A DNA stretch of 64,000 bases from Loxodes magnus. Taxonomy: Eukaryota > Ciliophora > Karyorelictea > Loxodida > Loxodidae. Of this stretch, positions 1 through 64,000 are shown in pieces. A program made the position numbers and the translations under genes. Positions within the stretch are counted from its first letter, which is position 1. Each line of letters opens with the position of its first letter. The notes beneath the pieces were generated by a model. That model made no database searches. It worked only from the letters and a program-made list of their open reading frames with translations, and was not told the origin of the DNA. The stretch lies in contig CAMPDV010000142.1 in assembly GCA_946699065.1 (NCBI GenBank), positions 124,001 to 188,000 on the forward strand. Direction: 5' to 3'.

Positions 1-12
1 TACAGGTACCTG
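1..12. other. 12-base perfect palindrome present once per unit (first copy, truncated by the window edge)
   Basis: Almost every unit contains acaggtacctgt, a perfect 12-base inverted repeat, here cut so that only its body at 2-12 plus base 13 is seen. It encodes Thr-Gly-Thr-Cys on the minus strand, at the loop between blades. Exceptions are the ggtaactg units (about 496, 3,440, 4,065), the ctttcttg units (from 40,343) and a ctatcttg unit (about 9,724). Coding constraint plus homogenisation explains it well; a protein-binding role is only a possibility. Confidence 0.6.
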
Positions 13-796
13 TCCTGACGTCCCATAGTCTCACCGTCTAATCATAACTTCCCGATACGATGAACTCTGAATCACTGGATATAGCCACAGCATATACCTA
101 ACCGTAGCGACCACTCATGGTCTTACAGGTACCTGTCTTGACGTCCCATAGTCTCACCGTCTAATCATAACTTACCGATGCGATGAACTCTGAATCACTG
201 GATATAGCCACAGCATATACATAATTAGTGTGACCACTCATGGTCTTACAGGTACCTGTCTTGACGTCCCATAGTCTCACCGTATAATCATAACCTCCCG
301 ATACGATGAAATCTGAATCACTGGATATAGCCACAGCATATACATAATTAGTGTGACCACTCATGGTCTTACAGGTACCTGTCTTGACGTCCCATAGTCT
401 CACCGTCTAATCATAACTTACCGATGCGATGAACTCTGAATCACTGGATATAGCCACAGCATATACATAATTAGTGTGACCACTCATGGTCTTACAGGTA
501 ACTGTCTTGACGTCCCATAGTCTCACCGTCTAATCATAACCTCCCGATACGATGAACTCTGAATCACTGGATATAGCCACAGCATATACCTAACCGTTGT
601 GACCACTCATGGTCTTACAGGTACCTGTCTAGACGTCCCATAGTCTCACCGTCTAATCATAACCTCCCGATACGATGAACTCTGAATCACTGGATATAGC
701 CACAGCATATACATTACTAGTGTGACCACTCATGGTCTTACAGGTACCTGTCTTGACGTCCCATAGTCTAACAATATAATCATAACTTCCCGATGC
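1..796 (-). CDS. WD40 array segment, about 6.5 repeats, running off the left edge
   Basis: Six to seven units run off the left end, so the 3' end of any gene lies outside the window. The segment contains SGGYDYTV and IASVSYD variants (from gaactta plus gatgcg), a TAG at residue 12 in a GRYG context (98-100) and a TAG at residue 40 (629-631). No poly(A) signal or unique 3' sequence is present. Confidence 0.38.
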
Positions 797-61700: not shown

Positions 61701-64000
61701 AGCATATACCTAACCGTTGTGACCACTCATGGTCTTACAGGTACCTGTCTTGACGTCCCATAGTCTCACCGTATTATCTCCACTTCCCGATACGATGAAC
61801 TCTGAATCACTGGATATAGCCACAGCATTTACATAACTAGTGTGACCACTCATGGTCTTACAGGTACCTGTCTTGACGTCCCATAGTCTCACCGTCTAAT
61901 CATAACTTCCCGATACGATGAACTCTGAATCACTGGATATAGCCACAGCATATACCTAACCGTAGCGACCACTCATGGTCTTACAGGTACCTGTCTTGAC
62001 GTCCCATAGTCTCACCGTATAATCATAACCTCCCGATACGATGAACTCTGAATCACTGGATATAGCCACAGCACATACAGAACTAGTGTGACCACTCATG
62101 GTCTTACAGGTACCTGTCTTGACGTCCCATAGTCTCACCGTCTAATCATAACTTCCCGATACGATGAACTCTGAATCACTGGATATAGCCACAGCATATA
62201 CCTAACCGTTGTGACCACTCATGGTCTTACAGGTACCTGTCTTGACGTCCCATAGTCTCACCGTCTAATCATAACTTCCCGATACGATGAACTCTGAATC
62301 ACTGGATATAGCCACAGCTAATACATAACTAGTGTGACCACTCATAGTCTTACAGGTACCTGTCTTGACGTCCCATAGTCTCACCGTCTTTTCTCCACTT
62401 CCCGATACGATGAACTCTGAATCACTGGATATAGCCACAGCACATACACAACTAGTGTGACCACTCATAGTCTTACAGGTACCTGTCTTGACGTCCCATA
62501 GTCTCACCGTCTAATCATAACCTCCCGATACGATGAACTCTGAATCACTGGATATAGCCACAGCATATACCTAACCGTTGTGACCACTCATGGTCTTACA
62601 GGTACCTGTCTTGACGTCCCATAGTCTCACCGTCTAATCATAACTTCCCGATACGATGAACTCTGAATCACTGGATATAGCCACAGCATATACCTAACCG
62701 TTGTGACCACTCATGGTCTTACAGGTACCTGTCTTGACGTCCCATAGTCTCACCGTCATATCATGACTTCCCGATACGATGAACTCTGAATCACTGGATA
62801 TAGCCACAGCATATACCTAACCGTTGTGACCACTCATGGTCTTACAGGTACCTGTCTTGACGTCCCATAGTCTCACCGTCATATCATGACTTCCCGATAC
62901 GATGAACTCTGAATCACTGGATATAGCCACAGCATATACAGAACTAGTGTGACCACTCATGGTCTTACAGGTACCTTTCTTGACGTCCCATAGTCTCACC
63001 GTCTTATCTCCACTTCCCGATACGATGAACTCTGAATCACTGGATATAGCCACAGCATTTACATAACTAGTGTGACCACTCATGGTCTTACAGGTACCTG
63101 TCTTGACGTCCCATAGTCTCACCGTATAATCATAACCTCCCGATATGATGAAATCTGAATCACTGGATATAGCCACAGCATATACCTAACCGTTGTGACC
63201 ACTCATAGTCTTACAGGTACCTGTCTTGACGTCCCATAGTCTCACCGTCTAATCATAACTTCCCGATACGATGAACTCTGAATCACTGGATATAGCCACA
63301 GCATATACCTAACCGTTGTGACCACTCATAGTCTTACAGGTACCTGTCTTGACGTCCCATAGTCTCACCGTCTAATCATAACTTCCCGATACGATGAACT
63401 CTGAATCACTGGATATAGCCACAGCATTTACATAACTAGTGTGACCACTCATGGTCTTACAGGTACCTGTCTTGACGTCCCATAGTCTCACCGTCTAATC
63501 TCTACTTCCCGATACGATGAACTCTGAATCACTGGATATAGCCACAGCATATACCTAACCGTTGTGACCACTCATGGTCTTACAGGTACCTGTCTTGACG
63601 TCCCATAGTCTCACCGTCTAATCATAACTTCCCGATACGATGAAATCTGAATCACTGGATATAGCCACAGCATATACCTAACCGTTGTGACCACTCATAG
63701 TCTTACAGGTACCTGTCTTGACGTCCCATAGTCTCACCGTCTAATCATAACTTCCCGATACGATGAACTCTGAATCACTGGATATAGCCACAGCATATAC
63801 AGAACTAGTGTGACCACTCATGGTCTTACAGGTACCTGTCTTGACGTCCCATAGTCTCACCGTCTAATCATAACCTCCCGATACGATGAACTCTGAATCA
63901 CTGGATATAGCCACAGCATATACCTAACCGTTGTGACCACTCATGGTCTTACAGGTACCTGTCTTGACGTCCCATAGTCTCACCGTCTAATCATAACCTC
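37774..64000 (-). CDS. Giant WD40-repeat protein, uninterrupted phase, about 213 repeats (partial, both ends missing)
   Basis: This is the longest block in a single WD40 phase: 26.2 kb, about 8,740 codons and 213 repeats of 41 residues, with no indel. Numbering the unit from the Gly of GTCKTMSGH, the landmarks are His9, Val13, Ala15-Val16, Asp31 and Trp37-Asp38; His9, Asp31 and Trp37 belong to the hydrogen-bonding network that closes a WD40 blade. Seven or eight blades make one propeller, so about 27-30 propellers are expected. In-frame TAG, TAA and TGA occur only at residues 12, 30, 32 and 40, and I read them as Gln, Gln and Trp. If all 64 codons are sense, lack of stops proves nothing; the evidence is the preserved WD40 text and phase. 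The start lies beyond base 64,000. The left edge is a one-base deletion at 37,773/37,774 (gacgtccc becomes gacgtac). A WD40-derived satellite is the main alternative. Confidence 0.6.
38935..40585. repeat. 13-unit block, copy 2 of a three-copy family
   Basis: This block recurs at 43,363-45,013 (offset 4,428 bp, 36 units) and partly at 34,265-35,450 (offset 4,672 bp). Diagnostic shared features are the KKGT unit (ctttcttg at 40,343/44,771) and a run of GRYG-TAG units. Confidence 0.83.
40095..42455. repeat. Two adjacent tandem duplications with 4-unit and 6-unit periods
   Basis: Positions 40,095-40,586 recur at 40,587-41,078 (492 bp; the KKGT marker is at 40,343 and 40,835). Positions 40,980-41,717 recur at 41,718-42,455 (738 bp; the gacatccc silent Asp variant is at 41,091 and 41,829), including HTDSVRSV units followed by SRDH and GHTS-TGA-V. 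Confidence 0.82.
43363..45013. repeat. 13-unit block, copy 3 of the family at 38,935-40,585
   Basis: The copy ends at about 45,013, where the first block has tgtcctgacg (near 40,592) and this one has tgtcttgacatcc. Confidence 0.83.
47830..52215. repeat. Tandem duplication with an 18-unit (2,214-bp) period
   Basis: Positions 47,830-50,000 recur at 50,045-52,215. Each copy contains a 3-unit (369-bp) internal duplication (48,303 and 48,672; 50,517 and 50,886). The copies differ near 48,052/50,266 (attactag against ataactag) and in a one-unit patch near 49,105-49,160 against 51,319-51,375. Confidence 0.85.
60368..63985. repeat. Mosaic copy of three separate blocks from 48,560-54,145
   Basis: Positions 60,368-61,953 match 48,560-50,145 (offset 11,808 bp, 96 units). 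Positions 61,844-62,559 match 52,250-52,965 (offset 9,594 bp, 78 units). Positions 62,830-63,985 match 52,990-54,145 (offset 9,840 bp, 80 units). The change of offset marks internal deletions or insertions of whole units after copying. Related partial copies lie at 55,006-55,430 and 55,791-56,296 (offset 2,706 bp, 22 units from 52,300 and 53,085). Confidence 0.8.

Follow-up and report, generated by a model that had tools for sequence, protein, structure and literature searches.

The in-frame TAG, TAA and TGA codons in the Loxodes magnus sequence analysed here most plausibly serve as normal amino-acid codons under a code that is already known, even though the sequence that carries them is no longer an intact gene. 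This stretch of 64,000 bp (hereafter the window; C142:124001-188000, from one contig of a 705,730,643-bp assembly of 7,843 contigs) very probably lies inside a satellite of ~481 kb that grew from a WD40 gene, with the stops being former sense alleles and the bulk of the array no longer translated. The window is a single uninterrupted tandem array, read on the minus strand, of a 123-bp (41-codon) WD40 unit; it holds 520 full units (520.4 copies with 94% matches by TRF), and neither sequence besides the WD40-unit array nor a tRNA gene was found within it. Using the PF00400 profile, 22 units scored 756.2-834.1 bits across 10 readings (cut-off 27), and seven units were predicted to adopt an all-beta structure with 28 strands (pLDDT 95.4, pTM 0.91). 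Since deletions shift the unit register, an unaligned count scatters the stops over many columns; the register was corrected by alignment, which gave 509 gap-free units and 11 with one deleted base, nine of these frameshift deletions at unit base 75 and two at unit base 110 (Table 1).

Over the 520 aligned units we counted 706 in-frame stops (615 TAG, 68 TGA and 23 TAA), with at least one in 435 units. The plus-strand letters at their coordinates are CTA, TTA or TCA, the codons being read on the minus strand. Codon alignment confirmed that stops in the window are confined to hypervariable columns: the columns with at least four codon alleles are 10, 11, 12, 14, 30, 32 and 40, and stops occur only in columns 12, 14, 30, 32 and 40, with none in the other 36. 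Table 1 gives the count of each stop allele. TGA is used in the hypervariable columns of the window and TGG never, whereas other all-sense codes make little use of UGA; this pattern counts against our preferred explanation. A preliminary description of this DNA had placed six example stops in the WD40 phase, and these do fall at unit residues (12 and 40 for TAG, 40 and 30 for TAA, 30 and 12 for TGA). Its stop columns, 12, 30, 32 and 40, were recovered, but the TGA at column 14 and the 11 single-base deletions had been missed. Its statement that stops are absent from conserved positions holds for the window but not beyond: in C142:11890-268000, 4 of 2,934 stops are framework singletons, and one of the first 26 units of the array has TGA at Trp37, so the column rule is slightly leaky outside the window. 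Rare alleles in that region also raise 15 further columns to at least four alleles.

Table 1. Features of the window (positions are those of the window).
Feature	Position	Strand	Basis
Part of one tandem WD40-unit array	1..64000	-	TRF, unit alignment, genome position
First complete unit as read (residues 1-41); residues 12 and 32 are TAG	63837..63959	-	
Longest deletion-free run: 212 units, or 8,692 codons sharing a frame when each of the three stops is taken as sense	37884..63959	-	
Example TAG, unit residue 12 (273/520 units)	98..100	-	
Example TAG, unit residue 32 (331/520 units)	161..163	-	
Example TGA, unit residue 30 (47/520 units)	1396..1398	-	
Example TAA, unit residue 30 (13/520 units)	19717..19719	-	
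Example TAA, unit residue 40 (10/520 units)	10588..10590	-	
Example TAG, unit residue 40 (11/520 units)	629..631	-	
Example TGA, unit residue 12 (20/520 units)	37357..37359	-	
Sole TGA at unit residue 14 within the window	10912..10914	-	
Two frameshifting 1-base deletions, unit base 110, near 37774 and 36422	36422..37774	-	
One frameshifting 1-base deletion present nine times, unit base 75, in 5 distinct unit types, near 24158, 19977, 17026, 13952, 12354, 8911, 4361, 3009 and 796	796..24158	-	

Unit sequence runs from C142:11,890 to 492,843 (268-489 kb by samples only, with units present at every place sampled), giving an array of ~481 kb and ~3,900 units. The array may be real while its length and block order are products of assembly, with collapsed or duplicated long-read stretches inflating it. 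Exact duplicated blocks, which reach 32 units, are consistent with such an artefact, and the L. magnus authors themselves suspect misassembly of low-complexity repeats. However, both ends of the array are joined to AT-rich non-unit flanks, and the 2,076 units of C142:11890-268000 comprise 502 distinct types, which makes an artefact of this kind unlikely in our view. The conclusion on the code is untouched by it.

At the head of the array, pentapeptide-repeat sequence is followed by a divergent first WD40 repeat, with which the array starts in frame. Of the first 26 units 25 are intact, the first frameshift lying in unit 26. We infer a candidate gene starting at C142:494,438, with a RING-like N-terminus, a Gln-rich coil-like region, pentapeptide repeats and WD40 repeats. 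Its pentapeptide domain scored above the Pfam cut-off and the RING-like match below it, no NACHT domain was found in the 312 + 66 upstream residues scanned, and the coil, pentapeptide and WD40 parts are separated by unexplained changes of frame. Further in, deletions affect 110 of the 2,076 units, and the framework alleles of these units (18 synonymous, 68 nonsynonymous and 4 stop) are close to the neutral expectation of ~21, ~66 and ~3. The window, with its frameshift deletions and a framework varying as neutral DNA would, is not an intact gene, and the array beyond the first 25 units is best read as a gene-derived satellite whose stops descended from sense alleles. The earlier proposal that "the gene" uses a code without a dedicated stop therefore needs to be divided: it suits the gene at the array head and the ancestry of the repeats, but not these 64 kb of frameshifted, nearly neutral sequence.

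We propose that successive block duplications, starting from the WD40-coding 3' part of this gene, built up the array. TAG, TAA and TGA would have served as three more amino-acid codons while the recognition-surface codons of the coding repeats diversified, presumably under diversifying selection. Stops would then lie at hypervariable columns and be as common there as other alleles because they were sense codons during diversification. The first 25 units still keep the frame set by the divergent first repeat, whereas the frameshifts and neutral framework variation further in indicate untranslated satellite DNA, so that the bulk of the array is probably not translated.

The untranslated units could instead have a function, as an archive of WD40 variants from which gene conversion would supply the expressed 5' units. 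Block duplications and reshuffled hypervariable modules are compatible with such copying, as are a framework common to the head units and the remaining array and an identical deletion found in 5 unit types and also in head unit 26. Fungal het-d/het-e are diversified by repeat exchange. Such repeats are known to evolve in concert in Podospora (PMC1805685). The alleles at column 14 differ, however: TGA is found there in 13 of the 26 head units (which also carry one TGA at Trp37), in 11 of the 97 units sampled between 280 and 489.5 kb and in 1 of the 2,076 units between 12 and 268 kb. As the alleles of the head and the far array are unlike, they give no sign that the far array was recently copied into the head, and we regard an archive as improbable. 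We give equally little credence to its fuller form, a ciliate recognition gene with a half-megabase archive joined at its 3' side that feeds surface combinations, including those spelled with stops, into the head units. Were repeat exchange at the array head true, it would represent a recognition system outside fungi that could be traced in single long reads.

More improbable still is translation of the whole array, or of long stretches within it, into a giant WD40 protein under the same code, with the deletions tolerated, programmed or erroneous. The 212 consecutive deletion-free units in the window, the in-frame array start with coding-like sequence upstream, and the recurrence in at least 10 window units of 6 of 9 conservative framework variants, versus 0 of 13 radical or frameshift ones, would all fit a translated array. 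Against this, ~481 kb would need ~160,000 residues, the frame is broken as early as unit 26, and the deletions and neutral framework proportions persist across 2,076 units.

Whether the stop alleles exceed chance or decay was addressed by simulation and by allele frequency. That they are missing from the 34 framework columns carries no significance alone, since only 28 distinct framework substitutions exist, among which ~0.9 nonsense would be expected. The hypervariable columns hold 8 stop alleles among 44, and within-column base shuffles expect 7.3, meaning that stops are not avoided there. Neutral decay simulated from a stop-free founder yielded a mean of 0.62 stop alleles and a maximum of 3 (311 accepted of 10,956 runs), under a loose fit in which accepted runs average 210 variant framework units versus 385 in the window. 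In per-codon simulations, which used a shifted mutation range, the observed value was reached in 0 of 948 accepted runs for TGA, 5 of 929 for TAA and 0 of 832 for TAG. Seven of the 8 stop alleles are found in at least 10 window units, versus none of the 13 radical or frameshift framework variants (Fisher 6.9e-5); the stop alleles resemble hypervariable sense alleles in this, of which 22 of 31 do so. The age contrast is weaker in the larger sample, where 10 units are reached by 6 of 44 radical framework variants. C-to-T hypermutation (repeat-induced point mutation or deamination) is disfavoured as a source of the stops; framework C is kept in CA and CG contexts, with one exception, a site at 422/520.

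Conserved genes of the same genome provide evidence on the code that is separate from the array. Single-copy genes without internal stops had been named in the preliminary description as what would count against its reading; in the two families searched, all 29 chaperonin matches and all three eRF1-domain matches contain in-frame TAA/TAG, and the 22 full-length chaperonin matches have 13-25 each. TGA appears once apiece in 7 of the 29 chaperonin matches, two of these among the 22 full-length ones, and in none of the three eRF1-domain matches. The assignment suggested earlier, UAA/UAG as Gln and UGA as Trp, agrees with these genes: reading TAA and TAG as Gln gave the top score of 10 readings for one CCT gene, and the lone TGA of CCT-eta aligns with Trp. 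The lone TGA of CCT-beta, which speaks against Trp, aligns with Asn. For TGA, Trp scores above Cys, Arg and masking in each of the two genes scored; the margins are 2.1 and 0.3 bits, the latter being that over Arg in CCT-beta. The TGA at Trp37 of one head unit also fits Trp. L. magnus has been reported to use NCBI table 27, in which UGA is the sole stop and can also encode Trp. These data support a code without a dedicated stop in this genome, in keeping with table 27; the code itself has already been described and is not new. We can accordingly dismiss as extremely improbable a satellite of a standard-code organism whose stops arose by decay once coding was lost, for although the near-neutral framework and frameshifts are present, simulated decay gave at most 3 stop alleles against the 8 seen, the per-codon values were reached almost never, and the conserved genes contradict it.

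The amino acids specified by the stops cannot be fixed from the window alone. Column frequencies from 243 WD40 proteins favour Glu over Gln for TAA/TAG by ~2.5-3 bits and place Trp fourth for TGA, with another scoring putting Trp first for TGA by ratio; the method has low power, as for sense codons it places the true residue at an average rank of ~6 of 20. Comparing codes by WD40 HMM, as had been suggested, failed to single out Gln/Trp, and Lys/Arg came top with a general WD40 HMM.

The karyorelict code is related to that of Condylostoma and Amoebophrya ex Karlodinium. The genome resembles table 27 karyorelicts (Loxodes/Parduczia) in having TAA/TAG for Gln and TGA for Trp inside coding sequence and conserved genes full of in-frame TAA/TAG, with no difference in the features tested. 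The array resembles het-d/het-e WD40 repeats in its near-identical units, variation concentrated in few columns, block exchange and changes in repeat number. HET-E-type WD40 units have ~42 residues versus 41 in the array. If the numbering registers coincide, six of the seven variable columns equal those of fungal high-internal-conservation (HIC) WD40 repeats of the het-d/het-e type (10, 11, 12, 14, 30, 32 and 39; PMC12222747), the array having column 40 where the fungal list has 39. The array differs in its ~3,900 units, compared with 10-12 in sequenced het-e alleles, and in having stop codons among its variable alleles; unlike fungal NLRs, it has pentapeptide and RING-like parts upstream and no NACHT in the stretch scanned.

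Gene-derived satellite DNA forms long head-to-tail arrays with frameshifts and a neutral framework, spread by block duplication. The array shares each of these features, but at one end it is still connected, in frame, to the gene it apparently came from, and the exon of origin already consists of tandem repeats. It would be one of the low-complexity tandem repeats that make up 231 Mbp of the 706-Mbp L. magnus MAC assembly; the main text of the genome paper makes no mention of WD40, pentapeptide or satellite. The GC content of the array, 45%, exceeds that of L. magnus coding sequence (33.5%), which counts against our preferred explanation. Sequence statistics, for the most part, suggest that reassigned stops can act as ordinary alleles at fast-evolving surface sites, in a satellite that remains attached to the coding exon from which it apparently grew. 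For annotation, the array is a warning that expanded coding repeats may lie among the low-complexity tandem repeats that are masked in karyorelict assemblies.

Our literature search on satellites with WD40 found nothing describing such an array. A 20-mer of the unit had no exact occurrence in the viral or genome contigs searched, and 3,960 window bases matched nothing in phages by megablast or in plasmids by blastn. In the protein collection, identity was at most 60% among the matches listed (120 of 7,209, 120 of 260 and 3 of 3). A protein search of viral contigs returned 7 WD40 loci at 46-51% identity.

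The window is a single tandem array throughout (period 123, 520.4 copies, 94% matches), and its minus-strand consensus translates as a WD40 unit. Wrap-around alignment gave 520 full units, 137 of them distinct; exact duplicate blocks reach 32 units at lag 34, and 248 of the 520 units lie inside such blocks of at least six units. In an AlphaFold model of seven units (pLDDT 95.4, pTM 0.91), DSSP placed columns 10-12, 30-32 and 39-41 of the predicted fold between strands and column 14 early in a strand.

The preliminary description had proposed that TAG, TAA and TGA occur in frame only at variable positions, and codon alignment bore this out for the window: all 706 in-frame stops, carried by 435 of the 520 units, fell in columns 12, 14, 30, 32 and 40 of the register-corrected alignment. 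The six codons it gave as examples are in phase, their coordinates being plus-strand positions of minus-strand codons. Columns 10, 11, 12, 14, 30, 32 and 40 have at least four codon alleles in the window and all others at most three. In the high-internal-conservation WD40 repeats of fungi, the sites chosen for high dN/dS are 10, 11, 12, 14, 30, 32 and 39 (PMC12222747). We also analyzed a larger sample, positions 11890-268000 of the contig (C142) on which the window occupies 124001-188000, retaining 2,076 of 2,082 units. There, the separation of variable from other columns was less clean, with rare alleles raising 15 more columns to at least four and column 28 to eight; across C142:11890-268000 the hypervariable columns hold 2,930 of 2,934 stops.

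Stops make up 8 of the 44 hypervariable-column alleles in the window, and since shuffling bases within columns gave a mean of 7.3, these columns show no stop avoidance. Seven of the eight stop alleles were present in at least 10 units, as were 22 of 31 non-consensus sense alleles at the same columns, whereas none of the 13 framework variants classed as radical or frameshift was that frequent (Fisher 6.9e-5 for the frequency contrast with the framework variants; P = 0.0075 at a five-unit threshold). This contrast was weaker in the larger sample, since radical framework alleles reached 10 units there in 6 of 44 cases, compared with 6 of 24 for conservative alleles and 6 of 18 for synonymous ones. 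Were the stops products of decay, they would have arisen from a stop-free founder by neutral mutation and block duplication. A simple simulation of that process used uniform mutation without gene conversion and matched the framework variation loosely (variant framework units averaged 210 in accepted runs versus 385 in the window). Across its 311 accepted runs, out of 10,956, stop alleles averaged 0.62 and never exceeded 3, versus 8 observed. Simulated codon by codon, the observed counts were attained in 0 of 948 accepted runs for TGA, 5 of 929 for TAA and 0 of 832 for TAG. C-to-T hypermutation is a poor candidate for the origin of the stops, since framework C sites are kept.

The assembly comprises 705,730,643 bases in 7,843 contigs; PMC11441545 describes a 706-Mbp macronuclear long-read assembly of L. 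magnus with 231 Mbp of tandem repeats and assigns the species table 27. In conserved genes, TAA or TAG, for which a reading as Gln had been proposed, occurred in frame in 29 of 29 chaperonin matches (13 to 25 each in the 22 full-length ones) and 3 of 3 eRF1-domain matches. When TAA/TAG readings were scored by Pfam bits on one CCT gene, from seven chaperonin loci fetched, Gln/Gln was best (586.2). Substituting Glu for Gln at TAA alone, at TAG alone and at both gave 583.9, 581.5 and 579.2, respectively. Lower still were Lys/Lys (575.4), Arg/Arg (575.0), Ser/Ser (570.8), Leu at TAG with Gln kept at TAA (568.5), masking of both (561.8) and Tyr/Tyr (552.1). A single TGA was found in 7 of the 29 chaperonin matches, two of them full length, and in 0 of 3 eRF1-domain matches. 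Its suggested reading as Trp scored above Cys, Arg and masking by 2.1 bits in one gene and by 0.3 bits in another; TGA aligns with Trp in CCT-eta, though with Asn in CCT-beta.

Framework variants in the window occur in near-neutral proportions (8 synonymous, 20 nonsynonymous, 2 frameshift, 0 stop), and 11 units carry single-base deletions. Framework alleles in the larger sample comprise 18 synonymous, 68 nonsynonymous and 4 stop changes, where neutral fractions predict about 21, 66 and 3; 110 of its units contain deletions and 8 contain insertions. Because of these deletions, insertions and near-neutral alleles, we conclude that the bulk of the array behaves as untranslated DNA.

Unit sequence extends far beyond the window, and an array of about 481 kb would, at 123 bases per unit, hold about 3,900 units (268-489 kb being covered by samples).

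Coordinates of the array, its flanks and other repeats
Feature	Location	Observation	TGA at column 14
Array, fetched in full	C142:11,890-268,000	unit sequence unbroken	1/2,076 (12-268 kb)
Array, sampled	C142, 280-485 kb	unit sequence in 13/13 one-kilobase samples
Array, sampled	C142, 489 kb	unit sequence in 500-base sample
Array, sampled units	C142, 280-489.5 kb		11/97
Array, high-coordinate end	C142, 489.5 kb to 492,843	unit sequence
Head units	C142:489,720-492,795	TAG at column 32 in 11, TGA at Trp37 in 1	13/26
Candidate start ATG	C142:494,438
3' break (L035)	C142, ~10,500-11,890	AT-rich, T-run, reverse-transcriptase-like YADD reading containing TAA
Separate patch (L036)	C142:983-1519	small patch of the array's unit, ~10 kb past its 3' end
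tRNA-like tandem matches	C103:669738-672972	regular spacing, 527 bases
tRNA-like tandem matches	C158:171420-182004	regular spacing, 1,752 bases

At the low-coordinate end the array breaks mid-unit; the AT-rich sequence it abuts has a retroelement-like YADD reading and may be a retroelement whose insertion terminated the array. At the other end, the WD40 frame can be followed upstream through a first repeat, which is divergent, to pentapeptide-like sequence (Pfam E 4.1e-5, above cut-off); farther upstream, another frame with many TAA and TAG includes the candidate start and a RING-like Cys pattern (below cut-off). By our own reading of the sequence, a coil-like region may also lie upstream of the array. 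The reading frame changes between these parts, which an indel or a short intron may explain. Of the 26 head units, the first in the array, 25 are deletion-free. TGA at column 14 declines along the array, and column 12 alleles likewise differ between the head units and the rest.

The observed elements are the code as seen in conserved genes, the continuity of the array with a WD40 frame, the near-neutral framework, frameshifts and block duplications. We propose that in coding ancestors the surface columns would have diversified under selection, TAG, TAA and TGA then being sense codons, and that unequal exchange would later have enlarged the exon past its translated portion.

Among open-licence PMC papers we found none linking WD40 with Loxodes or with karyorelicts, and the main text of PMC11441545 has no match for WD40, pentapeptide or satellite; PMC1805685, PMC4967479, PMC12005148 and PMC6394959 were also used. 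Much of this genome's tandem DNA may stem from WD40 repeats. Contigs C1503, C119, C620, C9, C272, C1832 and C6957 hold many further arrayed WD40 matches, often at 126-bp (42-codon) spacing; several of these matches contain in-frame TGA within the WD40 part, and open frames among the matches listed reach at most 2,899 residues.
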